Positions 29,043 through 44,379 of a stretch of DNA of 44,379 nucleotides are shown here, piece after piece. The position numbers and the translations under genes were made by a program. The notes beneath the pieces were generated by a model. It was not told where the DNA came from. It worked only from the letters and a program-made list of their open reading frames with translations, and ran no database searches. The stretch comes from an uncultured Blastocatellia bacterium (GTDB lineage: Bacteria > Acidobacteriota > Blastocatellia > Chloracidobacteriales > Chloracidobacteriaceae). The stretch spans positions 1 to 44,379 of the forward strand of contig CALGZC010000012.1 in NCBI GenBank assembly GCA_937934745.1, given 5' to 3'. Each line of letters starts with the position of its first letter. The first letter of the stretch is position 1.

Positions 29043-30320
29043 TCATGCAGCGTGCTTCGCCACCGGTCCTGAAATGACCGTGGTCAACGCCGCCGGATTC
29101 AGATGCGCTCGACTGACCCGCAGCACATCATCAACCGTGACCGAGTCGATCAGGTCAGGGTAACGGTGAACATAATCTGCCCCCAGCCGATGAACTTCGG
29201 TTTCGATCAAAAACAACGCCCGCTGCGCATTGGTTTCAAAATTGAAGACAAAACTACCGGTGAGGTAGGCCTTAGCGGCGGCCAACTCCTCCGGTGATAC
29301 CGGTTCCTGCTGAATGCGTTCCAGTTCATCCCGAATGGCCGCAATGGCTTTCGTTTGGTTTTCCGGCGATGTCCCGATGTAGGCGACGAAACGGCCTGGA
29401 TCAATGCCCGCCGTGGACGTAATGTTAGCGTAGGTCGTGTAGGCAAGGCCCAAGTCGTCACGCAGAATGCGTGGGATACGCGCCGTCATACCCGGACTGT
29501 CGCCCAGAATCACATCCATCACCCGCAAGGCGTGGTAGTCAGGATGTACCCGGGGGATTCCCAGGTGGCCCAGCAAGATATGAATCTGCTCTTTATCCGG
29601 CCGCGGGATGACCTGCTCCCGCGGCTCAGTTTGCCGTGCCACCGAGGGAATATCCGGTAACGCAAAGTCGGTGGCGGGCGACCAGTCGCCAAAAACCTCT
29701 TGGAGGCGCTGCTCCATTGTCGTGACAGACAAATCGCCGACCACGGCAATGAGTAAGTTGTTCGGCACAAAATACCGGGCATACGCCGCGCGGGCTGCAT
29801 CAACGGTGAGTGTGGCAACGGTGTCTTCGTAGCCGACAACGGGCCGCCGCGCCGGGTGGCCGGGGTACACCAACTCATCAAAGGCATCGGAAGCCACCGT
29901 GCGCGCGTCGTCACTTCGCGCCCGGAGTTGTGCGAGCCGCCGTGCCTGGCACTGGAGAAAACGCTCTTCAGGGAAACGGCTGTGGCGGAGCAGATCGGCA
30001 GCAATCGCGAGCAGTTGTGGGAAATCGTCCCGCAACGCCGTCAAGCTCAACCCACTCCGAGCGTAGCCGCCGAACGTCGTAAGACGCGCACCCGTTGCCT
30101 CAACGGCGAGGGCAATGTCCTGCGCCGTCTGTGTCTCCGTCCCCTCATCGAGGAGATCACCGATCAGAGCCGCCAAGCCGGCCTCGGCGTCCGATTCATA
30201 GCGCGAGCCGTAGGCAACCATGGCGTACAAGGCCACAACCGGCAAGTTGGGTTGTTCAGCAAGCAGCGCGACACAGCCGTTTGGGAAAACAACACGGTGA
30301 AAGGGTTGTGCAAGAGGCAT
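29043..30320 (-). CDS. M16 family peptidase-like protein without the zinc motif
   Basis: 425 residues, one full M16B unit of two homologous halves. The first half has NGCVALLAEQPNLPVVALYAMVAYGSR and the second VVGDLSVTTMEQRLQEVFGDW. Where active members have the inverted zinc motif HxxEH, this protein has GLAALIGDLLDEGT, so the zinc ligands and catalytic Glu are absent. In known bacterial M16B pairs an inactive subunit of this kind works with an active partner. No active partner lies next to it; the downstream gene is the M28 lipoprotein. No signal peptide is visible. The start at 30320 faces the divergent FHA-GGDEF gene. Confidence 0.85.
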   Translation of the reverse strand: MPLAQPFHRVVFPNGCVALLAEQPNLPVVALYAMVAYGSRYESDAEAGLAALIGDLLDEGTETQTAQDIALAVEATGARLTTFGGYARSGLSLTALRDDFPQLLAIAADLLRHSRFPEERFLQCQARRLAQLRARSDDARTVASDAFDELVYPGHPARRPVVGYEDTVATLTVDAARAAYARYFVPNNLLIAVVGDLSVTTMEQRLQEVFGDWSPATDFALPDIPSVARQTEPREQVIPRPDKEQIHILLGHLGIPRVHPDYHALRVMDVILGDSPGMTARIPRILRDDLGLAYTTYANITSTAGIDPGRFVAYIGTSPENQTKAIAAIRDELERIQQEPVSPEELAAAKAYLTGSFVFNFETNAQRALFLIETEVHRLGADYVHRYPDLIDSVTVDDVLRVSRAHLNPAALTTVISGPVAKHAA

Positions 30321-30416
30321 GTCAAAGTCAGGGTCTGCGTGTTGTCAGGCCTTGGGAAGGGAAACTCTCAACGTCCCATCTTGATAGAGTTTAAAGCTTG
30401 GGGTTATGCTGATGCC

Positions 30417-31481
30417 GTGAACAGTCTCAGTCAGACACAAAAATTGCAAGCCAATCCGCTTGCCCGGCCACGGCAGGTGCGGCCGGCGCTTGTGCACATG
30501 CGCGGCGACTACCTGGGCAGCTCGTTCCGTTTGGAACGGGTGGTGACACGCATCGGCCGCGGCTCAGATGCCGAACTGCGCCTTGAAAACGACGATGAAG
30601 CGTCACGGCTGCACGCCAAAATTGAGCGCTGTGAAACCCCGACCGGACACTATCAGTACTGGCTGACAGACTTGCGCAGCACGAATGGAACGCAACTCAA
30701 CGGCATCCCGCTGACGCCAGGCGAGCCGGTTCTCCTCCACGACGGCGATAAGTTTTCCATCGGGCGCCACATCCTCAAGTTCACGTTTCTGGACGACATT
30801 GACGAGGAATTCCACCGCCGCATTACAGAGCTGATCACCCATGACGACCTGACCGGGTTGTTGACACGTAAGAGTTTCGTGATGGAAATGGAGCGCGAGA
30901 TGGCACGCTCCAACCGCTATGGCCACCCATTCGGCCTGCTCATGATGGACATTGACTACTTCAAGCGGGTCAACGACACCTACGGTCACCTGATCGGCAG
31001 CCAAGTACTTCGGGAAGTGGCAACGGTTATTCGCCAAACACTCCGGGATTCCGACATTGCCGGGCGCTACGGCGGTGAAGAATACATCGCGCTGCTACCG
31101 GAAACCGACCGCGCCCGCGCCCATGAGGCAGCCGAACGCATTCGGGCGGCGATTGAAAGGGTGCCCTTTACGGCTTCGTTACACAACCCACAGCTCAAAC
31201 TCCACCTGACGATTAGCATTGGGATTGCCAGTTACCCCAGTGATGGGACGCGGGTGACCGATCTCATTGAGCGGGCCGACGAGGCCATGTACGAGGCTAA
31301 ACGCCGTGGGCGCAACATGGTGCAAGTCACCGGGCAATCGGCAGCCCACCGCAGCACGCCGCCATCGGTGCCCGCCATTAGGCCATCTGCGACAGACCGC
31401 ATAGATAAACCGCACAAGGCGCCAGCCGACCATCTGCCGATTGAACAACAGAAACCGGTTGTCACCGAACAGTCAGTCTAA
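30417..31481 (+). CDS. FHA-GGDEF diguanylate cyclase
   Basis: 354 residues from the GTG at 30417. The FHA domain (about 24-125) shows RIGRGSDAEL, SRLHAKIE and STNGTQLNG. The GGDEF domain (about 140-300) starts at HDDLTGLLTRKSF and carries the active-site GGEEY at 219-223. An inhibitory RxxD site (RDSD at 210-213) lies five residues before it. It should make cyclic di-GMP from two GTP and be product-inhibited; the FHA domain suggests control by a threonine-phosphorylated partner. The C-terminal 50 residues are Pro/Ser/Thr-rich. The frame is open upstream into the M16 gene, but the GTG is the first sensible start in the divergent gap. The ribosome site is weak. Confidence 0.87.
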   Translation: MNSLSQTQKLQANPLARPRQVRPALVHMRGDYLGSSFRLERVVTRIGRGSDAELRLENDDEASRLHAKIERCETPTGHYQYWLTDLRSTNGTQLNGIPLTPGEPVLLHDGDKFSIGRHILKFTFLDDIDEEFHRRITELITHDDLTGLLTRKSFVMEMEREMARSNRYGHPFGLLMMDIDYFKRVNDTYGHLIGSQVLREVATVIRQTLRDSDIAGRYGGEEYIALLPETDRARAHEAAERIRAAIERVPFTASLHNPQLKLHLTISIGIASYPSDGTRVTDLIERADEAMYEAKRRGRNMVQVTGQSAAHRSTPPSVPAIRPSATDRIDKPHKAPADHLPIEQQKPVVTEQSV

Positions 31482-31975: not shown

Positions 31976-32683
31976 ATGACCGCTTTTTACCTTTACCGCC
32001 TTAACCTTTCTGCCACTCCGTTCCGCAACCGACGACTGTTCTGGGCCGGTCTCGCTACGGCTTTTGTGCTCCTGGTGACGGCAACCCTGGTCACTGTGCA
32101 GCGCTATACCCGACTGGTGGCCGACGAGCAGCGATACCTTGAACTACGCGACGCATCGCGCCTGAGACTAGAGCGGGAACAGGCCCAACTGGCGAAAGTG
32201 ACGGCGCAAGCCGCTGCTGGACGACAGCCGACACCGGAGCAGGCGCGCGCCATGCGCGAAGCATTGAACCTCCTCGAAAAACGGCGACTTTCCTGGTCGC
32301 GTCTTTTACTTCAGATGGAGCAACAACTGCCGGCCGACATTCGCATCATGCAGCTTGCCTTTACTGCTGAGCGCACCAGCCCAGCAGCCGGTGACCAGGC
32401 ACCGGCCGAAAAAAACGACACCCTGCCGCCACCAACACCGTTGTCTGAGATACCTTTTACCGTCACCGTTCGGGCGCCGAAACCGGAAGCTGTCACGGCA
32501 TTTATTCGTGCCTGTGATGAACGGGGCATCTTTTACTTCGATCCGAACACTCAGGCGAAGCCTGCCGACGCCCGCACGCCCAGTGGTAAGCAGGAGGTCG
32601 AGTTTACACTGCGCGGACGCTACCGACCGGATGGGATGGGCAACGCACCGGCCACGCTGGCTTCATCGGAGGTAATGCGATGA
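31976..32683 (+). CDS. PilN-like pilus/secretion assembly protein
   Basis: 235 residues. A short cytoplasmic N-terminal peptide with the PilN-type NLSATPFRNRR motif, which in PilN binds PilM, is followed by one transmembrane segment (LFWAGLATAFVLLVTATLVTV). A coiled-coil stretch and a periplasmic ferredoxin-like domain (ADIRIMQLAFTAE, then FTVTVRAPKPEAVTAFIRAC) complete the usual PilN plan. PilN and PilO form the inner-membrane alignment complex of type IV pili. The next gene overlaps by 4 bases (ATGA). The ribosome site is weak and no pilM gene precedes; the neighbour upstream is a glutaredoxin on the opposite strand. Confidence 0.78.
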   Translation: MTAFYLYRLNLSATPFRNRRLFWAGLATAFVLLVTATLVTVQRYTRLVADEQRYLELRDASRLRLEREQAQLAKVTAQAAAGRQPTPEQARAMREALNLLEKRRLSWSRLLLQMEQQLPADIRIMQLAFTAERTSPAAGDQAPAEKNDTLPPPTPLSEIPFTVTVRAPKPEAVTAFIRACDERGIFYFDPNTQAKPADARTPSGKQEVEFTLRGRYRPDGMGNAPATLASSEVMR

Positions 32684-33432
32684 ATTGGCTCCGACGGCAC
32701 CTCTCTGCGTGGCTGGGATGGCAGGATACTCTTGTGCGCAGTCACTATCTCCGGCTTCCTGAATGGCTGGGACTGGGCATCTTGGCCTGTAGCCTAGTCG
32801 GTGCGATCATCGGCTACCAAACGTTTGTGCTGCCCCTCAACGATCAGATCGGCGCCCTTGCGCTTGAAACACGTGAGTTGCGCCGCCAAGCAGAAAAGGC
32901 ACGTCTTGAACGGCAACACATCGAGCAAGAAACGGCGGCGCTCTCCGCTGCTGTGGAAAACTGGCGTCGTTTTGAGCGGGAGCGATTGCGTGACACCCGT
33001 CGCGGCCAACTTGCCTTGATTGATGAAATTAACGCGCTGGCGCGCAAACATTCGGTCAAACTGACCGACACTATCTCCTTTGCGCTCACCGACCGGCAAA
33101 ACACCGCGCCACCGTCATCTGGTGGCAACTCAGCCAGGATTCAGAGTTACCCAAGCTTTGATGTCAAGTTTGGGATCACCGGGTCATATCGCAATATTCG
33201 GCATTTTATCCATGCCCTTGAACAAAGTCGCCAATTCCTCCTTCTCCAGCTGCTCAGCCTCAATCCCGGCGACGCCAATCTATCGGTCCCGGCGCAGCCG
33301 GTGGCGGAGAAGACTCTGGCCGGTTCCGGCGAACTGACGGTGACCTTGACGTTGACCGCATACTTCCGCAGCGACTCGGCAGTGGACAGTCAGACCGCTC
33401 CGTATGCTATGCCTAGCGTGAGGGTGCAGTGA
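32680..33432 (+). CDS. PilO-like pilus assembly protein
   Basis: 250 residues. A transmembrane segment near 30-55 (LGLGILACSLVGAIIGYQTFV) is followed by a long coiled coil (about 58-115, LETRELRRQAEKARLERQ). A periplasmic domain with the PilO-type pattern SYPSFDVKFGITGSYRNIRH, then LEQSRQFLLLQLLSL, comes next. It would pair with the PilN-like protein in the inner-membrane platform. The start overlaps the previous stop and its own stop overlaps the next start (GTGA), so the three genes are translationally coupled. Confidence 0.82.
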   Translation: MNWLRRHLSAWLGWQDTLVRSHYLRLPEWLGLGILACSLVGAIIGYQTFVLPLNDQIGALALETRELRRQAEKARLERQHIEQETAALSAAVENWRRFERERLRDTRRGQLALIDEINALARKHSVKLTDTISFALTDRQNTAPPSSGGNSARIQSYPSFDVKFGITGSYRNIRHFIHALEQSRQFLLLQLLSLNPGDANLSVPAQPVAEKTLAGSGELTVTLTLTAYFRSDSAVDSQTAPYAMPSVRVQ

Positions 33433-34559
33433 CTTCTCAGACGCAGAGAACGATGATCGTAGGGAGCCTCTTTATCGGCTCGTTGGCCGCTCTGCTTTAT
33501 GTTTGGTTGGGAACGGCTGAAGCTCCTACGGGGACGGCCCCGCTTCGTCCCGGGTTAGTGCGCGCCATTGATCTGGAACAAGGTGTGCAGGCGGCAGTGA
33601 AGCCGGCGACACCACCATCCGAGGGCCGAGACGGCATTCTGGTGCAGATGGCGCGGGTGACGCTTGACCCGATCTTGCCACCGCCTGTCCCGGAAACACT
33701 CCGTAACATTTTTGAGTATCCACCGCCGCCACCACCGAAACCCGTTCCCTCGCCCCCACCGCCGCCGATTATGCTTCACGGTGTGTCGCCACAGCGCGTG
33801 TTTGCACGTTCGACACTCAACTATGAAGTTCTAGTGCAGGGGCAGCCACTGCCTGACGGTGCGCAAGTGCTCTTAGATGGACAACCGTTGCCCTCAGAAC
33901 GCACCGGAGACGGACAACTGCGGATTCGCTTGACGCCGGACCTCACGGCCCAGGCCCGAACGGCAACCGTGCGGGTCGTCGTGGCAGGCCAGGAATCGAA
34001 GTGGTACTCTAACGATCTCAGCCTTCTCATTGAAGCCCCCCCTAATCCCAACGACCAGTACCGCTACATCGGGTTGGTCACCGATGCCGGCGGGCAAAAT
34101 CCGCGCGCTGTTTTGGCGACAGATGTCGAGTACCAAACAGTACGTCCCACCGAGACCATCGGCCGGTTTCGGCTCAAAAGCGTCACGCGCGAAGAAATTG
34201 TCGTCGAGGACACACAGTTGCCCGGCGTGAGTCACACCCTGCACCTGTCAAGTGGTCCACCGCCGGCCGGTGGGGCTTCACCGCCGGCGGTTACCAATTA
34301 CGCTCCGAACTACCAGCAGATGCCGGCCTACCAACCGCCGCCGAGTTATCAGCCGCCGGTGCAATACGATGCGCAGGGCCAACCGGTAGGGCAACCCACT
34401 GGGCAGCCACCGATGAAACCCCAACCGGGTTTGAAGCCACAATCCGGTTCTGGGGCGCCGTTGATGGTGCTCCCTGGTAACACCAACGAACAACAACCCG
34501 GCAATGTACCCCAGGCACCGCCGCGCCCGTTCAATCGCCTGCGCGCGCCGCGCCAATAA
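33429..34559 (+). CDS. PilP-like periplasmic protein with proline-rich linkers
   Basis: 376 residues from the GTG at 33429. One N-terminal transmembrane segment (IVGSLFIGSLAALLYVWLG) is followed by a linker with polyproline (EYPPPPPPKPVPSPPPPP). A beta-rich periplasmic region comes next. The part DQYRYIGLVTDAGGQNPRAV to EEIVVEDTQLPG resembles the PilP/GspC homology domain that contacts the secretin. The C-terminal 90 residues are Pro/Gln-rich and probably disordered. By position it fills the PilP slot after PilN and PilO, but the length and tail differ from the short PilP lipoprotein and it has no lipobox. A 17-base tandem repeat begins at its 3' end. Confidence 0.7.
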   Translation: MTSQTQRTMIVGSLFIGSLAALLYVWLGTAEAPTGTAPLRPGLVRAIDLEQGVQAAVKPATPPSEGRDGILVQMARVTLDPILPPPVPETLRNIFEYPPPPPPKPVPSPPPPPIMLHGVSPQRVFARSTLNYEVLVQGQPLPDGAQVLLDGQPLPSERTGDGQLRIRLTPDLTAQARTATVRVVVAGQESKWYSNDLSLLIEAPPNPNDQYRYIGLVTDAGGQNPRAVLATDVEYQTVRPTETIGRFRLKSVTREEIVVEDTQLPGVSHTLHLSSGPPPAGGASPPAVTNYAPNYQQMPAYQPPPSYQPPVQYDAQGQPVGQPTGQPPMKPQPGLKPQSGSGAPLMVLPGNTNEQQPGNVPQAPPRPFNRLRAPRQ

Positions 34560-34597
34560 TCGTGCCGCGCCAATCACTGCGCCATGCCAATCACGGC
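34547..34597 (+). repeat. 17-bp tandem repeat, three copies, at the PilP-like gene 3' end
   Basis: Three consecutive 17-base units share GCC(GC)GCCAAT(C)A: starts at 34547, 34564 and 34581. The second and third copies match at most positions. The first overlaps the stop codon of the PilP-like gene and the last ends 14 bases before the next gene's ATG. There are no Shine-Dalgarno bases in the unit. Confidence 0.75.
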
Positions 34598-34611
34598 ACT
34601 CATCACCACCT

Positions 34612-35355
34612 ATGCGCCCTGCTTGCCTGTCTTCCCACCGCCTGCGCTACCGACAACAGGGTGGATACCTGCTGTTGTTTCTTGTCTTTGCTCTGGCGGC
34701 CATGGCGATTTTCCTGACGATGACGGCCGACACCCGTGAGGCAGAACGCCAACGTGAGCGCGAAGCGGAGTTCTTGGCGCGGGGGTGCGCCGTTGCCCGT
34801 GCGATTGCGCGCTACAACAACGCCGGACGCCTTGCCCCACTCAACCCCGGCGCGCCGTTTCCGCTCAAGCTCAGTGATCTGACCAAAGAGGTCAACATCA
34901 ACGGCGTACGGATGCATCTCCTCCGCCCGTCTGCCATCAATGACCCCTTTACCGGCCGCGAATGGCGTGTGGTACGCATCGGAGACCCTTTAGTCAAGCG
35001 CTATCTGGAACGATGGTCGTCTTTTACAGGCCAGCCGGTGCCGGCCAACTACGTCGCCCTCACGGCCAGTGCCCTGGCACAGGGAAGTTTTGGCGGGGAC
35101 TTTGATCCACTCGGTCAGGCGCCCCCATCCGGCGGCGTCTCGGAATTGCCAGATGATGACGATGCCGGCTTTGCGGCGACCCGTCCAATTGTCGGCGTGG
35201 TTGGGCGGTCTCCCAAGCCGGCTTTCACCCGCCTCCTGGGTGAAGACATCACCTACGACGAATGGCTTTTTATGTACGGCCCGATTGTGACCCAACCCAA
35301 CGGCATCGTCCTTGGCGTGACCCCCTGCGAGCGCAGGACTCTGCCGCCACCATAA
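34612..35355 (+). CDS. Pseudopilin-like protein (type II secretion / type IV pilin family)
   Basis: 247 residues. A short basic N-terminal peptide ends in QQGGYLLLFLVFALAAMAIFL. This resembles a prepilin processing site (Gly before a hydrophobic helix starting with an aromatic residue) but lacks the usual Glu at position +5. A heptad-like helix (ADTREAERQREREAEFLARG) follows, as in GspG-type pseudopilins, then a region with FTGREWRVVRIG. The last part is acidic and low-complexity. It lies 52 bases after the PilP-like gene. The ATG at 34612 is preceded by no obvious ribosome site; translation could couple to the upstream gene. Processing by PilD is an inference. Confidence 0.65.
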   Translation: MRPACLSSHRLRYRQQGGYLLLFLVFALAAMAIFLTMTADTREAERQREREAEFLARGCAVARAIARYNNAGRLAPLNPGAPFPLKLSDLTKEVNINGVRMHLLRPSAINDPFTGREWRVVRIGDPLVKRYLERWSSFTGQPVPANYVALTASALAQGSFGGDFDPLGQAPPSGGVSELPDDDDAGFAATRPIVGVVGRSPKPAFTRLLGEDITYDEWLFMYGPIVTQPNGIVLGVTPCERRTLPPP

Positions 35356-35473: not shown

Positions 35474-37327
35474 ATGAAAGAGTGTCCCAAGTGCAAGCAC
35501 TGCTTTGATGACGATGTGGCAGTCTGCCCCCACGATGGAGCAGGCTTAGTTCAGTCGCTGCGCGGTGGCGTCTTGATTGACAACAAATACCGTCTCGAAA
35601 AGTGCCTTGGGCGAGGCGGCATGGGGGCTGTTTATCGCGCCAAGCACGTCCATTTAGGCCGCACAGTGGCGGTGAAAACCCTCCTGCAGGAGTACGCCGC
35701 CTCGGATGCCACGGCGGTCAATCGTTTTCAACGCGAAGCGCGTGCAGCTAGCGCCATTGAGCACCCTAATGTGGTTCGGGCGCTGGACTTTGGGATCACA
35801 CCGGATGGCATGCGATACATCGTCATGGAGTATGTCGAGGGGCGTCCGCTCAATGAGATCATTTCCTGTGAGGCCCCGATGTCTCCGCTGCGCGTGCTGA
35901 AGATTTTCAAGCAGGCTTTGGCCGGCATTGCTGCTGCCCATGATCTGAAACTTGTTCACCGTGACCTCAAACCGGCCAATATTATGGTGTACGAGCGCAA
36001 TGGAAGTACAAACTTGGAGGAGTTAGGCCTTGTCCTGACCGATGACACCACGAAGGCAACCGAAGAGCCGGAAATGACCGTCAAGGTCCTGGACTTTGGA
36101 CTGGCAAAAATTCTCAATGACGAGATTCTCGGCGATGACAATACGGATTTGAAAACGGGCATCATGGGCACACCCTTTTACATGTCGCCTGAACAGTGCT
36201 CGGCGAAGCCGGTGGACATGCGGTCAGATATTTATAGCCTGGGTGTCATCCTCTACCAGATGCTGACCAAAGATGTTCCCTTTCGCGGCGACTCATTTGC
36301 AGCAATTGTCTCCGGGCATCTCACACAGGCGCCGCCGAGCATTCGGGCGCGTAATCCAGAAGTATCACCGGAGCTGGAAGCGGTGGTCATGCGCGCTCTG
36401 GCCAAAAATCCGGCCAATCGGCAAGCCGGTGCCCGTGAGTTGTTGGCCGAGCTGGAGGCTGCCGTCCTCAAGCAGTCTCACGGGAGTACAGGAGAGCTGC
36501 TAACGCCGACGCTGGTAATTACAAGCTTCCCGGGCAACTGTACGGTCGAGGTCGATGGGGACTTCCGCGGCAAGACCAACGCACAAGGGAGGCTTGAGCT
36601 GCGCCTGCCACCGGGTGAGTACCGCCTGCGTTTTACGGCCCCCGGCTGGAATGACCAAGCCCGTACAGTGGTCATGGGCCACAGCGACCAAAGTCTGGAC
36701 GTCCGGCTGACACACAAAACTGCTGTTCTGGTACCGGCCGCAGTCGGCACTATCACGGCACTGCATCCGGTGACGAGCAGTGTCAAACCGGCCAGCGTGA
36801 CTATGCCTCCTACCTCCGGTAGTTTACGTCCGGCAACAGGTTCATTCTCAGCAGCAACGCCAATGCCGCCGGAGCATCTGCCGCGTGTGTCAGCCACTAC
36901 CGGACTTAACATCACGCTTGACATCCTGCTGACCACGGTGGGCATCCTGAGCGGGATCACCGCGCTCACATCGTTCCAACCCGATCCCCTCTCCCTGCGG
37001 TGGGACCAAACCGTGATGCTCGGGATCTCCTGGTGGATTGGCCTGGTAGGTGTGATCTCGACGCTGGTGATGCCGGTCTGTCTCTTGCTGGCCGACTATG
37101 TCTATCCTTACCGTCCTGTACCGGTCCTCGTCACCATTTTCAACATTACCCGCATTGGGTTTCTTGTCGTCCTGGTCGGAGGGACGGTTGTCGCTGCCCT
37201 TGGTGCCCCGCTGGGTCACTGGGACTGGCTTCCGATAAGTTGGTTCAGCCCCCGCATCGTCGCCGTCGTTGCGCTGGGCGCACTGTACAGCCGCATTGCT
37301 GCACGGCGGCGGGCAGTAGTCGTTTAG
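35474..37327 (+). CDS. Membrane Ser/Thr protein kinase with zinc ribbon and PEGA domain
   Basis: 617 residues. A zinc ribbon (CPKCKHCF...CPHDG, 4-22) precedes a Hanks-type kinase domain (about 38-325). That domain has GRGGMGAVYRAK, the ATP lysine K68, HRDLKPAN (162-169), DFG (207-209) and GTPFYMSPEQ. A roughly 20-residue insertion lies between the catalytic loop and DFG. Residues about 345-415 form a PEGA domain (LVITSFPGNCTVEVDGD to LPPGEYRLRF). The C-terminal 130 residues have about four transmembrane segments. It should phosphorylate serine or threonine of partners, possibly FHA proteins. It lies between pilin-type genes on the same strand, 118 bases after the pseudopilin gene, which suggests control of the pilus or response to it. 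The ATG has only a weak AGGG site. Confidence 0.93.
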   Translation: MKECPKCKHCFDDDVAVCPHDGAGLVQSLRGGVLIDNKYRLEKCLGRGGMGAVYRAKHVHLGRTVAVKTLLQEYAASDATAVNRFQREARAASAIEHPNVVRALDFGITPDGMRYIVMEYVEGRPLNEIISCEAPMSPLRVLKIFKQALAGIAAAHDLKLVHRDLKPANIMVYERNGSTNLEELGLVLTDDTTKATEEPEMTVKVLDFGLAKILNDEILGDDNTDLKTGIMGTPFYMSPEQCSAKPVDMRSDIYSLGVILYQMLTKDVPFRGDSFAAIVSGHLTQAPPSIRARNPEVSPELEAVVMRALAKNPANRQAGARELLAELEAAVLKQSHGSTGELLTPTLVITSFPGNCTVEVDGDFRGKTNAQGRLELRLPPGEYRLRFTAPGWNDQARTVVMGHSDQSLDVRLTHKTAVLVPAAVGTITALHPVTSSVKPASVTMPPTSGSLRPATGSFSAATPMPPEHLPRVSATTGLNITLDILLTTVGILSGITALTSFQPDPLSLRWDQTVMLGISWWIGLVGVISTLVMPVCLLLADYVYPYRPVPVLVTIFNITRIGFLVVLVGGTVVAALGAPLGHWDWLPISWFSPRIVAVVALGALYSRIAARRRAVVV

Positions 37328-37676
37328 TTCTTGCCTAGGGCCTTTTTCCTGCACAAACCGCACATGCGGCCGCCACTCGCCAACCGGTGGCGTTCTGTAA
37401 TTGCACAGAACGCCACCGCACCTGCCGCCAACACGTTCGCCCGGTCAAGGGTGATCGCGTCGTGTACCGGAAAGATTCGACTTGAGGTACCTTCGTTGTT
37501 ACTTTACGTAACACCTAACTCAACCGAAGGCTGCCCTGCTTCAGAGGTGACAGCCCTGATGTATTCGGCAAATAACTAATTATCAGAGATTTACCGAATC
37601 ACTAGCTCTTTGTCCAGATCGTGGCACAGGATTTGTGCCCTTTTATGGGCAAACTCCGTTATTGCGTGAGGTCGCT
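37328..37676. other. 349-base intergenic region before the pilin genes
   Basis: No gene is supported. The main feature is a strong hairpin at 37385-37418. Shorter stem-loops are possible near the end (TGCCC TTTTAT GGGCA at about 37636-37651). The last 40 bases lead to GTGAGGT just before the FimT-like ATG. A promoter for the pilin genes probably lies here, but I could not assign boxes with confidence. Confidence 0.45.
37385..37418 (+). terminator. 14-bp perfect hairpin after the kinase gene
   Basis: CGGTGGCGTTCTGT (37385-37398) pairs perfectly with ACAGAACGCCACCG (37405-37418) around a 6-base loop. It is 57 bases after the kinase stop codon. There is no T run, so it may be a U-less terminator, an RNA-stability element or a protein-binding palindrome rather than a classical intrinsic terminator. 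Confidence 0.5.
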
Positions 37677-38444
37677 ATGTCATACCGTCTCCGCCGGCTT
37701 GGTCGCCCTGAGCGAGGCTACTCACTGATTGAGCTGATTACCGTTGCAGCGCTGATCGGTGCTCTTGCTGCAATTTCGGGTATCTTTCTCCTTGCCTACC
37801 GCAAGGCAATTGCAGCCGACAGTGCAGCCAGTGAACTGGCAGCGGCAGTTCGCGAAACCCGTGCCCGTGCCATGGCCGAACGCAACACCTACCAGATGAT
37901 TCTCTTCCGCCGGCCAAGCGCAGACTCCGATGCCTACGTCGTCCTGCGCTACGTCAATACAGCCCGTAATGTGGTGGCCGGTGGGACTCCCTACGAAACC
38001 ACAGCAAGAGTCATGCGCCGGGCTGAACTGCCACCGGATTATCGGTTTCAGCCTTTTCCCAGCTCCAGCGACGCGTTTGTCCCCCCCCCGACAGTCCTGG
38101 GCTTATCGGGGGTGACCTTTACGACCAACACTTTCACGTTTCTGGAAAGCTTAGGCATCGACCTTGGCACAAGTGGCGAAAGTGCCATTCTGACCTTTAA
38201 AAGCGACGGAATGATTATCTACACCCCACCGAACGCCGATCCAACTTCCAACTTTAGGAATACGCCTTTCAACGGAGTAATTTTCCTGACCCCGGCGCTT
38301 GGTGGCACCGACCGTTCGCGTAGCCTACGCGCCCGTGCACTCACGATATTCGGACTGACTGGGCGCGTCACGATGTGGAAGAACGCTGCGCACGGCGTCA
38401 ACACAGGTGTTTGGGTCTGTGGGGACCGTGAGGCCATGAGTTAG
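37677..38444 (+). CDS. FimT/GspH-like minor pilin
   Basis: 255 residues from the ATG at 37677, with GTGAGGT upstream. The prepilin peptidase site is clear: RPERG before YSLIELITVAALIGALAAISG, with the conserved Glu at +5 of the mature helix. The following segment, SELAAAVRETRARAMAERNTYQMIL, is the classic GspH/FimT alpha-helix and first strand (cutting and reuse of the pilin fold). GspH/FimT-type minor pilins prime pilus or pseudopilus assembly. The protein is longer than the usual 150-200 residues because of an extended beta region. It heads a run with the PilW-like gene (44 bases downstream) and the PilX-like gene. Confidence 0.88.
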   Translation: MSYRLRRLGRPERGYSLIELITVAALIGALAAISGIFLLAYRKAIAADSAASELAAAVRETRARAMAERNTYQMILFRRPSADSDAYVVLRYVNTARNVVAGGTPYETTARVMRRAELPPDYRFQPFPSSSDAFVPPPTVLGLSGVTFTTNTFTFLESLGIDLGTSGESAILTFKSDGMIIYTPPNADPTSNFRNTPFNGVIFLTPALGGTDRSRSLRARALTIFGLTGRVTMWKNAAHGVNTGVWVCGDREAMS

Positions 38445-38488
38445 TCCAAGCGGCCAAGCCCCGTACCTTCTTCTGGAGCCATATCGCC

Positions 38489-40096
38489 ATGACCTCTCTC
38501 CAACGATCTCAGTTGTCTGCCCTTGGACGTCTGCGACGTCGGTCAGCCGGTTTCTCACTGGTTGAACTGCTCGTTGTTGCCGGCATTATGGCCATCGTTA
38601 TGGCTGCCGTGATGGGGACGCTGACACTGGCGCTGCGTACCACCCGTGACAACTCGGCGCTGGTCGAGGCCAACAACAACGTCCGGGCCGTGGTGAATTT
38701 CATCAAAAACGATCTTGACAACGTCGGTGAGCTGCCGCTGACAAGCGTTTTTTATGCCACACCGGATCCGAATCCATACCTTGGCGCGCCGGCTGTATAT
38801 GTTCGAGGCGGCTTCCTCGCCAGTCGCGGCTTTCCCGTCGGTACCGGGTCCGCAGCCCCTGGAAGAGTCGGCAACATTAGTCCGCGCTTGGCGGGCAGTC
38901 TAACCCTTGCAACTCAGTGCGACATTTTGTCGCCGATCCAAGCATGGACGGGGACAACACACGGCGCGGGAGGGGTGGGTTCGTTTGCTGCTCCGGCGAT
39001 TACGGCCAATCAGGGCTATGTTGAACACCCAACTCTCCCTAATCAATTCATCGCGGCCAATTCGCGCTACCCCAATCTGTGGATTTATCCCGGCGCCTGC
39101 GACCGGACGGAAGTGGCGACAGCCTACGGCAACGGCAGCCATCAACTGATCACCTTACAGGTCAATCCCGTTCCGGTGGCTCTGCGCGTGAACGTCCCCG
39201 ACCCGAACAATCCCAGTGGCACGATTGTCCAACAGCAGATTTTCCCGGTCACGGCGACATTCTCAGCGGTAGCAGAGCTCACCGGTCCGGATCTCGTCTT
39301 GCGTCCGGAAGTCACAACGTCAACCGATCCGACCTACGGTGGGGCTATTCCGCCCAACACCCGTATTAATCTTCGCCCGGCGCGTGTCGCTCCGAACGTC
39401 ATCACCAATGCCAACCCCTTTGTGAACCCAAACGACAGGCTCCTGGCCCCACGCCTGCGGCCGTACATTGACACCCTGCTGCTGACGTATCAGTACACGC
39501 CATCTGGCGGTAATCCCACGGTGCTTTGCGTACTTGGGCTGGTGACAGGCTTCGCTGACGACGACAAGATCGTTCTGGCGGGCAACGACCTCGCCGGCAT
39601 CAACCCCGAAGATTGGAGTAGGATCATTCAGCCTGGTGTCCCGGTGACCATCACACGCATGCGCCTGTCGCACTACTTCATCGGCTGGAACGGGGAAAAC
39701 ACACCACCAATTCTGTTCTGTCGGCAAGGTGGACTCCTGTCACCGCTGGCATTCGATATTGAGAACTTCCGGCTGCGGTTCATGGTCGTTGATGAACTGG
39801 GACTGGCGAACCCGGACAACCCGTCGCCCGTGCAAGGAAGGATGTACTATACCAACGATATTGGCGGCCCACTTCCACTGCCTCCTGGTGCAACCTTTCC
39901 TCCCACTCCACAGAGGTCGCCGCTCACCACCAAAACGCAGGTGCGGATGGTTGAGATCACGGTATACGGACGCACCAGTGAGCGAAATCCGGCCCTGATC
40001 AGGGCCGATGCCGCCATTCCCGATCTCTTCAATCGCGGTTATTTCCACGTCACCGAACGCACCAGTGTCGGGCTACGCAACCTTGCGCCACAGTAA
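38489..40096 (+). CDS. PilW-like minor pilin, enlarged
   Basis: 535 residues. The N terminus ends in RRRSAG before FSLVELLVVAGIMAIVMAAVMG, a canonical prepilin site with Glu at +5. The helix (TRDNSALVEANNNVRAVVNFIKNDLDNVG) matches PilW/GspJ-type minor pilins, which often have aspartates here. Beyond residue 90 the protein is a long beta-rich region with many Pro, Asn and Thr residues, well above the usual 200-350 residues of the family. CTGGAG lies about 11 bases before the ATG. Its stop codon lies inside the first of three 13-base repeats, and the PilX-like gene follows after 103 bases. Confidence 0.85.
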   Translation: MTSLQRSQLSALGRLRRRSAGFSLVELLVVAGIMAIVMAAVMGTLTLALRTTRDNSALVEANNNVRAVVNFIKNDLDNVGELPLTSVFYATPDPNPYLGAPAVYVRGGFLASRGFPVGTGSAAPGRVGNISPRLAGSLTLATQCDILSPIQAWTGTTHGAGGVGSFAAPAITANQGYVEHPTLPNQFIAANSRYPNLWIYPGACDRTEVATAYGNGSHQLITLQVNPVPVALRVNVPDPNNPSGTIVQQQIFPVTATFSAVAELTGPDLVLRPEVTTSTDPTYGGAIPPNTRINLRPARVAPNVITNANPFVNPNDRLLAPRLRPYIDTLLLTYQYTPSGGNPTVLCVLGLVTGFADDDKIVLAGNDLAGINPEDWSRIIQPGVPVTITRMRLSHYFIGWNGENTPPILFCRQGGLLSPLAFDIENFRLRFMVVDELGLANPDNPSPVQGRMYYTNDIGGPLPLPPGATFPPTPQRSPLTTKTQVRMVEITVYGRTSERNPALIRADAAIPDLFNRGYFHVTERTSVGLRNLAPQ

Positions 40097-40135
40097 TGTG
40101 GAGAAACAGTAAGTGGGAGAAATAAGTGGGAGAAA
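40094..40135 (+). repeat. 13-bp repeats (three copies) starting at the pilW-like stop codon
   Basis: TAAGTGGGAGAAA occurs twice in perfect tandem (40110-40122 and 40123-40135). A near copy, TAATGTGGAGAAA, starts at the stop codon itself (40094-40106), separated from the first perfect copy by CAG. The unit is purine-rich and contains a Shine-Dalgarno-like GGGAG. The last copy can also pair with TCTCC at 40140-40144. Confidence 0.8.
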
Positions 40136-40199: not shown

Positions 40200-43100
40200 A
40201 TGAGAACACGATTTACTAGCATGTTACGTCGGAAAGGCCGGTACCAGGAGCGCGGCGTGGCGCTTGCCATCGCCTTGGTTCTCCTCGGTGTCCTCCTTGT
40301 GTTCACGTCGGTCTCAGCAACCCTGATGACAACGGAAGCGCGCCAAACGGCAGCGGAATACCAAAAAACCCGGACTTTCAACGCTGCCTTGGCCTACCTA
40401 GAAACGATTACGGCGAACGTCAATCGCATTCTCTCGCGGTCGCCAAACATCACGGCAGAGGACTTAGGACCGACGGGGATCACCAGTAATCTCCCACCGT
40501 TTGTCACTGAAGCAGGACAGCCGCTCTATACCTTCACGGCCGACACACCATTCGTCCCACCAGGAGCTGACTCACAAACGACCGTGACGGTCAACGACGC
40601 CCCGTTCAATGGGATGACAGCGCTGCGACGGCAGTTTGTGCTCGGGGCGTCAGCCAAGGCAAACGATGCCAATGAAGAAGCGCGCCTCATCCGACAGGTC
40701 AATTTCTACCAAATCCCGGCCTTTCAGTTTGCGGTCTTCGGGTTTGACTGCCTGCAAGTGTCGCCTGGTCCGCAGTTCTACCTCGGCGGTCGCACACACG
40801 TAAACCGCCACCTATACCTCGGCGCAGGAAGCCGGGCGTGGTTCTTTGGACCAGTGACCGTCGCCGGCGAAATCGTGCGCCAGATCACGCCCAGCAACAA
40901 GACGCGCCCCGACAACTCGCGAGTGCTCAACCCCAACCTCGTGGTCAGCGGCGCGACGCCCACCGAGCTTGCCGACAGCGTGACAGCACCAATTATCACC
41001 AGCTTACCTGTGCAGAAAGGCCCAGGGGGTTATTCGACCGACCCAGCCATCTACCGCGTCGCCCCAGTCAACTGGCTGATTAACGACATCAACCTAGCGG
41101 TTGGCCCTGGCGCGGCGACGCCGATTGTCGGGGCTGGACCCAACAATGGCGGGACGGGCACCCCTTGGGGCGTCACCAACGGACACTCCCCGGGCAAGCA
41201 ACGCATTGTGCCGCTCTTGCTCCCCACACAGACCAACGGCTTCAATGCGATTGAGATCATCCGGCGCGCCAATCCGAATGAGAATCTTGAGGTTTTGCGC
41301 AACTCACGTTTCTTTGAAGGTCAAGTCTCCACCCGTGCGACAACCATTCGCATCTTGCTCGATGACGACCTTGACCACTTTCCTCCGGCAATGCCCGGCG
41401 GCGTTCGCGCCTATGATCTCGAAGAGCTTTCCAACCCGCAGACGGCGCTATTTCAGCAATTCTGGCTCCAGAACAACCCCAATGTGGTTGAATTCAACCC
41501 CTACAGCGGCAGCGATCATCCCGACCAACCGGCCAGTGTGTGGCCTGCCGGCAGCGGTGGCCCACCGCGTATATACACCAGGTCTGACACATTAGAGACG
41601 GCCGTTGGCTCACGACGCCGTGTTCTCCCGCCACAAACCAACCTTGTCAACCAACAAGCCTACTTCCAATCCACGGCCAACAACACGGATGATCCACAAC
41701 GCCGCAAGCGGACGTACATCAAGATTGAACTGCTGGTCAACAACAACCCTGGTGGCAATCCGAACATTCGTCCGGAGCGCTATGACATTACGCCGCACAT
41801 TCTCAACTTAGGTATCACCTCGGGCCCAATCCCGGTGTTGCGTGAATTACCATCGGATAACCTGCAGCCCGGCCAGCCAGAACCGGAGACGACCTATGCA
41901 GCCGTCTATGCCCTCAACGATGGGGGGAGCATTAGCCGCCTCCAAGATCAGAACCCAAGCAATATTCCGCGCAACTTCCTGCCGTTTCTAACCGAAAGCA
42001 GCTCTCCGAGCTTTATTGGGCGCTTTGCACATACCTTTGGTGAAGTGCCAACAGTTGCCATCAGTAGTCCCGTTGGGCCGGTCAACCAGCGCGTCACATA
42101 CTGGTATGAACCGAATACCATTCTCACGCTCCAACGGACAATGATCCCCTTCACGCCGCAGACCAATGTCAACCTGACCAATGCGGATCCGCCGCAGACA
42201 GATGACCGCGGTCGGGCTGTGAATACGACTGAAGTCGCTTCCCTGCGCGGGCGACTGACTGACGATGGGAATCCGGCGACAGCCGGCTATCCGGCGCGCT
42301 TCAAGAGCCTGCTGGCCAAGCCCTATTTCCGCTTCACAGATGACTTTGACAATCGGAGCTACATCAAAGGCTCCTATGACATTGGCCCCGACGGCGCGCG
42401 CAACACGGCGGATGATATGTTCCTGATGCCGAACCCGATGAAGGGCGAGCTGCCGCGCGAGGAAATCTTCAACGGTGAAAACAGCAACGGCGACAAGCGG
42501 CAAGAGCGGTTTATCCGCCGGGTGCGGGTGCGCGCCTCTCGGCTTGCGCAACCCACGCCTCAAGCGCTGCCAGTCGCGAGCGGATTGCATCCGATCGCGA
42601 CGCTCAGCCCCGACCTCAGCGCGCCAGGGGACGACCCGCAATACAGTGTAGGCATCGCCGGAACCTTTCTCGGCCATCAGACGAGTTTCAATCAGATCAT
42701 GCGCTCGCCCAACTTCTGGACCAACGATCCGGCCAGCCCAGCGCGCGTGCTGCGGGTTGAGCGTCAGATTGTTAGCCTTTTGCGTCACTTCGTCTTCCGC
42801 CCCGGCATTCCCGGCTTCTACGCCATGCGCCACGACAACATCAACATCCTTGGCAACCCGGTTGCGCCTGGCGCGGGCGCCAACAGCCTTGGCGATGGGC
42901 GGCTCGACAATGATTTGGATTACCTCAACCAGGGTCCGGCAACGTATCCGACTTCGCCAGCAAACGCTTATATCACCGGGCCTTACACGCCCCAATATAA
43001 CGTCAACCTCAATACGACCGCCAGCGATGCCCCGGCGGACGGCGCGCCGCCGACCGGCTATCCAGGGGTGGGACCAACGGGCGTGATTGACCTGCAAGAC

Positions 43101-44379
43101 ATGACGCCGTTCGCCAACGTTAACGACCAGCAACTGCTGGCGAAGTGTCTCTTCAACCCGACCGGGCTGACGCCGGCCGAGCAAGTACGACTCTTCCCAC
43201 ATCTGCTGCGAACGGCGCCGCAGTTTACGGTGAACTTCCTCCAAACGCTGCGGAGCGCGGAACTCGGTACGCCGGGACGCTCAACCGATCCATCGCTGGG
43301 CAATATTCCAGCCATTGGCGACTTTGCCACGGCCGGGATTCTCGGTACCCCGGAAATAGCCCGTGAGAACCTGACCTTCGACTGGAATGGCGACGGCATC
43401 ATCGAGCCGCCGCACTACCCGTTCGAAAACCAGCGCGTGGACCTCAACGGCGCGCGGCGCATCCCGAACAACGAAGGCGGAGTGTGGGTTCCCGGCGATG
43501 GCGACACGGATGACCTCGGCGAACAAATGAGCGCCCTCCCGCGGACTGTCGGCACGACCAATCCCGGCGACCAAGGCGTGCCGAGAATGGGTTATTCGCC
43601 GGAGAGCAATCTCAACTCGCTCCTTCCGTCAACCTTGCGCGTTCTGCACACGCCACCGCCGGTCAACAACCTCAACCGCGTGGCGCGGCGCACGACCTCG
43701 ATGCCAATCGAGATCATTTTCTGGGAAGCCGCGCAAAACGATCCCGATCCAAACTTTGCGCCCCTGCCCGACCCGGAAGGTGGGCTTAACACGGTGCCTA
43801 ACCAGGCCGACCCCGGCGGAACGTCAGCGGTCTTCCCGCCATCGTCCGGGTTCACGGAAACCGGCGAGTTTCAGAACTGCTTCCGCATCAAGGTTCCCTT
43901 CAACACCTTCCTTGGCAAGACGACGTCAGTGACCGTGACCGGCTTGGGCACGGTTCGCTTCAACGTCCGCGAGGCGGTGGCGATCATCTTCCAGCACCCG
44001 TTGGCGTCGCGGGTTTATCCGACAGCGGCCGGCATCGATCCGACCGGCATCGGGCCGACCACGCCCCAGGTGGATGGTGGCCTTCCCGTCATTGGCCCAG
44101 GGGCTGGCACCAAGAACCTTAACCTTGAAACCCAAATTGGTCGTCGCCTGGGTCTGAGTGACGCGCACTATGCCTTCCCAGGCCACGCCTATATCGCGTT
44201 CACGCCTAACCCGAGCGATCCCTTGTCGCCGCCGCCAAGTGGAGCAACCCTGATACCGCGAATACGCATCGAGATGGACCGCGCTTTCCCGATCAATGTC
44301 TACGACCAGCGCGAAGGGCGGCACGTCAACCGGCGCTATGGCTTTCAGGGCATCCCCACCGCTTCCGACTACTACGATG
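40200..44379 (+). CDS. Giant PilX-like protein, C-terminally truncated by the window
   Basis: The frame opens at the ATG at 40200 and stays open to the window end, at least 1393 residues. The N terminus, QERGVALAIALVLLGVLLVF followed by TSVSATLMTTEARQTAAEYQ, matches the PilX family (a prepilin-like helix without Glu at +5). Typical PilX proteins have 150-250 residues. Here the helix carries more than 1300 residues rich in Pro, Asn, Gly and Thr. Acidic loops that look calcium-binding are GPDGARNTADD (729-739), DWNGDGIIE (1061-1069) and GDGDTDDLGE (about 1099-1108). It lies in the PilX slot after FimT- and PilW-like genes. It may take the part of a tip adhesin such as PilY1; that is inference. 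GAGGGTGA lies about 6 bases before the start. Confidence 0.85.
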   Translation, partial: MRTRFTSMLRRKGRYQERGVALAIALVLLGVLLVFTSVSATLMTTEARQTAAEYQKTRTFNAALAYLETITANVNRILSRSPNITAEDLGPTGITSNLPPFVTEAGQPLYTFTADTPFVPPGADSQTTVTVNDAPFNGMTALRRQFVLGASAKANDANEEARLIRQVNFYQIPAFQFAVFGFDCLQVSPGPQFYLGGRTHVNRHLYLGAGSRAWFFGPVTVAGEIVRQITPSNKTRPDNSRVLNPNLVVSGATPTELADSVTAPIITSLPVQKGPGGYSTDPAIYRVAPVNWLINDINLAVGPGAATPIVGAGPNNGGTGTPWGVTNGHSPGKQRIVPLLLPTQTNGFNAIEIIRRANPNENLEVLRNSRFFEGQVSTRATTIRILLDDDLDHFPPAMPGGVRAYDLEELSNPQTALFQQFWLQNNPNVVEFNPYSGSDHPDQPASVWPAGSGGPPRIYTRSDTLETAVGSRRRVLPPQTNLVNQQAYFQSTANNTDDPQRRKRTYIKIELLVNNNPGGNPNIRPERYDITPHILNLGITSGPIPVLRELPSDNLQPGQPEPETTYAAVYALNDGGSISRLQDQNPSNIPRNFLPFLTESSSPSFIGRFAHTFGEVPTVAISSPVGPVNQRVTYWYEPNTILTLQRTMIPFTPQTNVNLTNADPPQTDDRGRAVNTTEVASLRGRLTDDGNPATAGYPARFKSLLAKPYFRFTDDFDNRSYIKGSYDIGPDGARNTADDMFLMPNPMKGELPREEIFNGENSNGDKRQERFIRRVRVRASRLAQPTPQALPVASGLHPIATLSPDLSAPGDDPQYSVGIAGTFLGHQTSFNQIMRSPNFWTNDPASPARVLRVERQIVSLLRHFVFRPGIPGFYAMRHDNINILGNPVAPGAGANSLGDGRLDNDLDYLNQGPATYPTSPANAYITGPYTPQYNVNLNTTASDAPADGAPPTGYPGVGPTGVIDLQDMTPFANVNDQQLLAKCLFNPTGLTPAEQVRLFPHLLRTAPQFTVNFLQTLRSAELGTPGRSTDPSLGNIPAIGDFATAGILGTPEIARENLTFDWNGDGIIEPPHYPFENQRVDLNGARRIPNNEGGVWVPGDGDTDDLGEQMSALPRTVGTTNPGDQGVPRMGYSPESNLNSLLPSTLRVLHTPPPVNNLNRVARRTTSMPIEIIFWEAAQNDPDPNFAPLPDPEGGLNTVPNQADPGGTSAVFPPSSGFTETGEFQNCFRIKVPFNTFLGKTTSVTVTGLGTVRFNVREAVAIIFQHPLASRVYPTAAGIDPTGIGPTTPQVDGGLPVIGPGAGTKNLNLETQIGRRLGLSDAHYAFPGHAYIAFTPNPSDPLSPPPSGATLIPRIRIEMDRAFPINVYDQREGRHVNRRYGFQGIPTASDYYD

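Follow-up and report, generated by a model that had tools for sequence, protein, structure and literature searches.

How type IV pili without PilY1 build and arm their tips is an open matter in many phyla. The question is raised here by a 44,379-bp contig of an uncultured Blastocatellia bacterium of the Chloracidobacteriaceae (GCA_937934745.1, CALGZC010000012.1), at the end of which lies the unfinished gene of a giant protein with a PilX-like head. An earlier note, made from the letters of this window (the whole stretch analyzed, which is the entire contig C12 of a 73-contig genome), had proposed that the giant fuses a minor-pilin anchor to an adhesin-sized ectodomain and so represents a different pilus-tip architecture. 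Judged from gene order and content, the giant appears to be an alternative to the arrangement of a short PilX plus PilY1, occupying the same operon slot. Among the members of a widespread and overlooked family it is the largest, and this family, known to the searched libraries only under HpsA and PilX_N, is a candidate answer to the question. The parts of the giant gene inside the window are as follows.

40200-44378, + strand: giant PilX-type minor pilin gene; ATG start, 1,393 codons, no stop before the window end.
40200..40256, + strand: class III prepilin-type leader of 19 residues, the last three being ERG, with cleavage predicted after Gly19.
40251..40388, + strand: PilX_N-like hydrophobic helix and its continuation, residues 18-63 (PF14341, below cut-off).
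40200..41834, + strand: N-terminal core common to the family, residues 1 to ~545, from profile-profile alignment.
41835..44276, + strand: Chloracidobacteriaceae insertion, ~810 residues; boundaries approximate, flanks at positions ~459 and 586 of the class alignment (A1).
43380-43415, + strand: partial calcium-type loop DWNGDGIIEPPH in the insertion, the only such loop inside the window.
44277..44379, + strand: start of the conserved C-terminal core (FPINVYDQREGRH), from alignment with homologues.

Since the window is a whole contig, the missing stop of the giant open reading frame (ORF) is an assembly edge. The ORF is, as the earlier note had it, real, longer than 1,390 residues and unfinished; the full-length protein, at ~2,000 residues, is larger than was then reported. 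Its C-terminal part had no match on the other contigs of its own genome (G000) and matched on C12 only. Beyond the window end, four other Chloracidobacterium genomes (the two-contig G001, G004 and G005 and the draft G006) carry homologues that are 82-85% identical to the window part and form a single uninterrupted frame of 2,015-2,047 residues (open-frame lengths). A join of two genes through sequencing error, or another fusion artefact, was therefore rejected. Downstream of the giant in these Chloracidobacterium loci, on the opposite strand, stands a gene that reads as uvrB (by sequence, no profile), and not pilY1. The giant ORF is under purifying selection throughout, insertion included: the ratio of nonsynonymous to synonymous substitution rates (dN/dS) was ~0.07-0.09, a value that can only be rough with dS so close to saturation. 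The described Pro/Asn low complexity held as a bias in composition (Pro 10.6%, Asn 7.3%), but no long tandem repeats were found when these were looked for.

The head and the operon position both resemble those of PilX. Gly19, at position -1 of the prepilin leader, is invariant in the class alignment A1 and in the alignment of the giant forms (A2), a hydrophobic helix follows, and mature residue 5 is Ile rather than Glu. Glu5 is also missing in PilX and GspK, both of which have been placed at filament tips (PMC7541494). In Pfam, the PilX-like N-terminus proposed for the giant was weak in the window protein itself (PF14341, 14 bits against a cut-off of 25.5) and in G009 (18.2 bits), while the Thermus oshimai homologue scored above the cut-off (25.8 bits). 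The giant is the last pilin gene of a FimT-PilV-PilW-PilX-type cluster, in an order kept in other Chloracidobacteriaceae, although in Chloracidobacterium no PilV-type gene is adjacent (37635-40096); such a gene follows the giant in G009 (L082 17006-17719) and precedes the cluster in G007 (L041 3410-4114). The two genes directly upstream are listed below.

37635..38444, + strand: FimT/GspH-type minor pilin (PF07963 near cut-off; operon position conserved).
38489..40096, + strand: PilW-type minor pilin (PF07963 N_methyl above cut-off; operon position conserved).

We next asked what had become of PilY1, the separate large tip protein of such clusters. The PilY1 model (PF05567) matched nothing in the own genome and 57 relatives (58 genomes), nor in the named controls, and the whole phylum was searched for this reason. 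With the same model, PilY1 was found in 115 of 396 Acidobacteriota genomes and the giant in 73, the two counts being taken as the same 396-genome draw on the agreement of handles and sizes. Only one genome held both, against 21.2 expected (Fisher p = 2e-11 by genome, relatedness ignored). By family, 2 were shared among 21 giant and 35 PilY1 families, against 8-10 expected (Fisher p = 4e-5 to 8e-4, depending on an assumed total of 75-88 families, which is not an exact count). The slot itself was exchanged: in two loci of PilY1 genomes (L099 and L100), FimT, PilV, PilW and a PilX of 185 or 203 residues precede a PilY1 of ~1,200 residues, and in G155 and G126 FimT, PilV and PilW are followed by a giant of 1,002 or 806 residues. 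A limited search of the open-access PubMed Central literature returned no description of this exclusion, and the titles and abstracts of papers naming Chloracidobacterium and type IV pili held nothing on the giant gene.

The ectodomain comprises two cores and, in Chloracidobacteriaceae, the insertion between them. The N core, marked by the motif IPxFQFxxFxxDxLxxxPGPxFxxGGRxHxN, is common to the giant and class forms (hhalign of A2 against A1, probability 100, E = 7e-90). The C core matches A1 positions 586-703 and 740-967 and, as judged from homologues, should continue for ~620 residues beyond the contig, including a canonical calcium-type loop and an HpsA-like end. The insertion is missing from homologues of ~1,000 residues. 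The earlier note had advised looking for a von Willebrand factor type A (vWA) or beta-propeller fold in the ectodomain; a Pfam scan found neither of these, nor any other domain, in the window protein or its homologues. A PilX-PilY1 fusion was therefore rejected, there being no PF05567 beta-propeller or other Pfam module. The earlier idea of an anchor-adhesin fusion stands in part: an ectodomain the size of an adhesin sits on an anchor of minor-pilin type, and PilY1 is neither adjacent nor detected in the 58-genome set, but there is no support for a unique arrangement or for a fusion of known modules.

Family members were found in 29 of the 58 genomes. Including the phylum-wide search, homologues of 600-2,000 residues with the PilX-type head and both cores in common are spread over 21 families of Acidobacteriota; outside that phylum they lie on plasmids of Thermus, Deinococcus and Picosynechococcus, which makes three phyla in all. 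Homologues from the same class, Blastocatellia, are mostly 930-1,390 residues long, with FimT-, PilV- and PilW-type genes preceding wherever the flank was read. Every class member read showed the order FimT-(PilV)-PilW-giant, as did Thermus, Deinococcus and Picosynechococcus: the records of T. oshimai, Deinococcus and Picosynechococcus have three prepilin-type genes upstream, and that of T. brockianus, which ends there, at least one. Alignment A1 matched a Thermus/cyanobacterial alignment (A4) with a profile-profile E of 2e-47. In Deinococcus sp. KNUC1210 (L113 5655-7588) the annotation divides the homologue between two overlapping ORFs, one with the PilX_N part and one with the HpsA-like C part, which might reflect a split gene or a frameshift. 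On the Picosynechococcus plasmid, a gene upstream (L111 1-596) is annotated as a two-component regulator propeller protein. Two family copies each are present in G011, G023, G092, G128, G135, G276, G300 and G336, some of them on separate contigs.

The giant had also been credited with calcium-loop-like motifs. Inside the window this applies just to DWNGDGIIEPPH, at which DWNGDG and the following IEP are invariant, except for one hydrophobic position, in five aligned Chloracidobacteriaceae. The canonical loop, D-x-[DN]-x-D-G-x-x-D-x-x-D, sits past the window end and is known from the homologues; the claim is partly right. A strict 12-residue EF-hand-like loop occurs as one copy in 19 of the 27 homologues spanning this region, where ~0.002 per protein would be expected after shuffling, and it comes after SDRRGD in both alignment consensuses. 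Calcium is required by PilY1 proteins, in which the loop motif is Dx[DN]xDGxxD (PMC8833165). On these sequence grounds, the ectodomain of the giant is probably stabilized by calcium through one EF-hand-like loop. The giant and PilY1 share size class, cluster place and a loop of this type in the C-terminal part, but the giant has no PF05567 match.

The prepilin leader, the helix lacking Glu5 and the place of PilX in the operon are most simply read as those of a protein that caps the pilus tip and whose own ectodomain takes over from PilY1. We consider it fairly probable that it is a tip-capping minor pilin that joins the anchor role of PilX with the ligand-binding role of PilY1. In its type IV pilus it would be the minor pilin of the PilX position, anchored by its leader and hydrophobic helix; its ectodomain (N core, C core and the ~810-residue insertion in Chloracidobacteriaceae) would do the job of PilY1 and offer a surface for binding ligands, probably polysaccharide or cell-surface partners. 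From these features we infer tip location, assembly order, calcium binding, adhesion and a ligand. Several points weigh against this reading. The strict loop is missing in 8 of the 27 homologues, the Pfam scan gave no domain with a known ligand, and passage of a 2,000-residue pilin through the secretin remains an objection. Structure prediction covered the stretch from residue 1 to 600, with two sequences, and the last 688 residues of L033, with a single sequence; the models had mean predicted local distance difference test (pLDDT) scores of 30.3 and 31.5 and were not used. One of the two G135 copies (L106 3927-7055) lacks pilin neighbors. Taxonomic families are not independent, so the p-value overstates the strength of the exclusion, and G348 has both the giant (two copies) and PilY1, on different contigs (C115, C161 and C301) of a genome with 6% listed contamination.

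HpsA, a hormogonium polysaccharide protein of cyanobacteria (NCBIfam NF038301), was the sole named family matched, by all 19 class members (E down to 6e-18), and its model also matched the T. oshimai protein (7e-24) and a cyanobacterial protein (1e-14); the truncated window protein itself gave no match. Three collinear HpsA profile regions (285-326, ~961-1068 and 1327-1440) lie in one ORF, for example in G045. Like the giant, HpsA is large and is encoded beside pseudopilin genes (hpsB-D); the two are homologous, in the same order, over parts of the N core and at the C-terminal end. Unlike members of the curated family, the homologues scored 20.9-83.6 bits, and because this is far below the cut-off of 400 bits, the relation read from these alignments is homology and not membership. 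In Nostoc, hpsA-D are among the genes needed for motility, and HpsA was described as a hypothetical membrane protein, not a pilin (PMC6495340). The homology suggests a link of the giant to motility polysaccharide, and these matches also favor another role, in which the giant and pseudopilin-like minor pilins would act as a piston or gate exporting surface-motility polysaccharide and not as a tip adhesin. We regard this as rather unlikely given that every match is far under the cut-off, that no polysaccharide-synthesis cluster was recognized beside the operon in the window or the relatives read, and that the exchange of slots with PilY1 speaks for a function at the tip, although a secretion role and a tip role are not mutually exclusive. 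Should HpsA prove to be a giant minor pilin too, the part that the hps genes play in motility polysaccharide would need to be reinterpreted, to some extent, as a role at the pilus tip.

Returning to the tip-capping minor pilin, pilins with large grafted ectodomains are an already described class (PMC8179133, PMC6561018). Like the giant, the modular pilins ComZ (Thermus), PilB/PilC (Streptococcus sanguinis), CofB and GspK join a pilin anchor to a large extra module, and theirs are argued to be at the tip; ComZ and PilB were argued to fit only there (PMC6561018, PMC8179133). The giant shows this architecture in sequence, a pilin head joined to a large extra module, but modular pilins differ in their modules and the giant matches no solved structure by sequence (two profiles and one protein against the Protein Data Bank, E up to 10). 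The most extreme multi-domain modular pilin named has 860 residues (PMC8179133). Because such pilins are known, the architecture of the giant is a variant of modular minor pilins and not a new category. Compared with PilX (PF14341) of the FimT-PilV-PilW-PilX-PilY1 cluster of type IVa pili, the giant has a similar N-terminal head without Glu5 and the same operon position, but the short PilX has ~200 residues and a separate PilY1, whereas the giant is ~10 times larger and no PilY1 was found.

Two of these modular pilins point to further alternatives. The giant could be the GspK-like tip of a type II secretion pseudopilus: the GspK model matched 10 of 19 homologues (best E = 2e-5; ~56 N-terminal residues in the member shown), and the pilin domain of ComZ is closest to GspK (PMC6561018). 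This is very unlikely, however, as a search of the own genome returned no T2SSK domain (PF03934), whose model did find matches in 8 of 14 controls, and the operon comes after a PilN/O/P-like set. A DNA-receptor role in natural transformation, of the kind proposed for Thermus thermophilus ComZ, seems highly improbable for the giant; the operon plan is the same (three prepilins and a large fourth protein) and ComZ is a pilin with a large beta-solenoid ectodomain argued to be at the tip (PMC6561018), but the lack of any match to a solved structure, profiles included, speaks against it.

If the giant does cap the tip, there might be two type IV pilus tip designs, a short PilX with a separate PilY1, or a single giant PilX as anchor and tip receptor. 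We give an even chance to this reading as a whole, in which the second design extends across Acidobacteriota, Deinococcota and Cyanobacteria, with HpsA as its cyanobacterial form and that of Chloracidobacterium as the largest seen, with an extra module of ~810 residues. The family offers a comparative signal in the near-exclusion of PilY1, a testable feature in the calcium-type loop and a bridge to HpsA. The Synechocystis pilA9-slr2019 operon is needed for flocculation (PMC6755745), and its slr2018, likened to the giant by operon plan only as a further gene after three minor pilins, may be another relative.

The own genome contains six PilT-family ATPase matches above cut-off and two secretins, in line with a type IV pilus. 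Further upstream of the minor pilins lies the following set.

31976..35355, + strand: probable pilN, pilO and pilP and a pseudopilin-like gene (tentative names); order kept in G004, G009 and L034.

Profile support in this set is for pilO alone (T2SSM_b below cut-off, 32680-33432). Between it and the minor-pilin genes is a Ser/Thr kinase with a PEGA domain (35474-37327), and a similar kinase gene has the same place in the G002, G004, G007 and G009 loci. Just upstream of the pilN-like gene, an FHA-GGDEF protein of diguanylate cyclase type (29856-31481) might link cyclic diguanylate (c-di-GMP) to the pilus. In G007, a propeller-like gene (by reading, no profile) lies downstream of the giant (L041 14995-18486). 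Short direct repeats, two copies of TAAGTGGGAGAAA and a degenerate one, precede the giant gene at 40090-40135.
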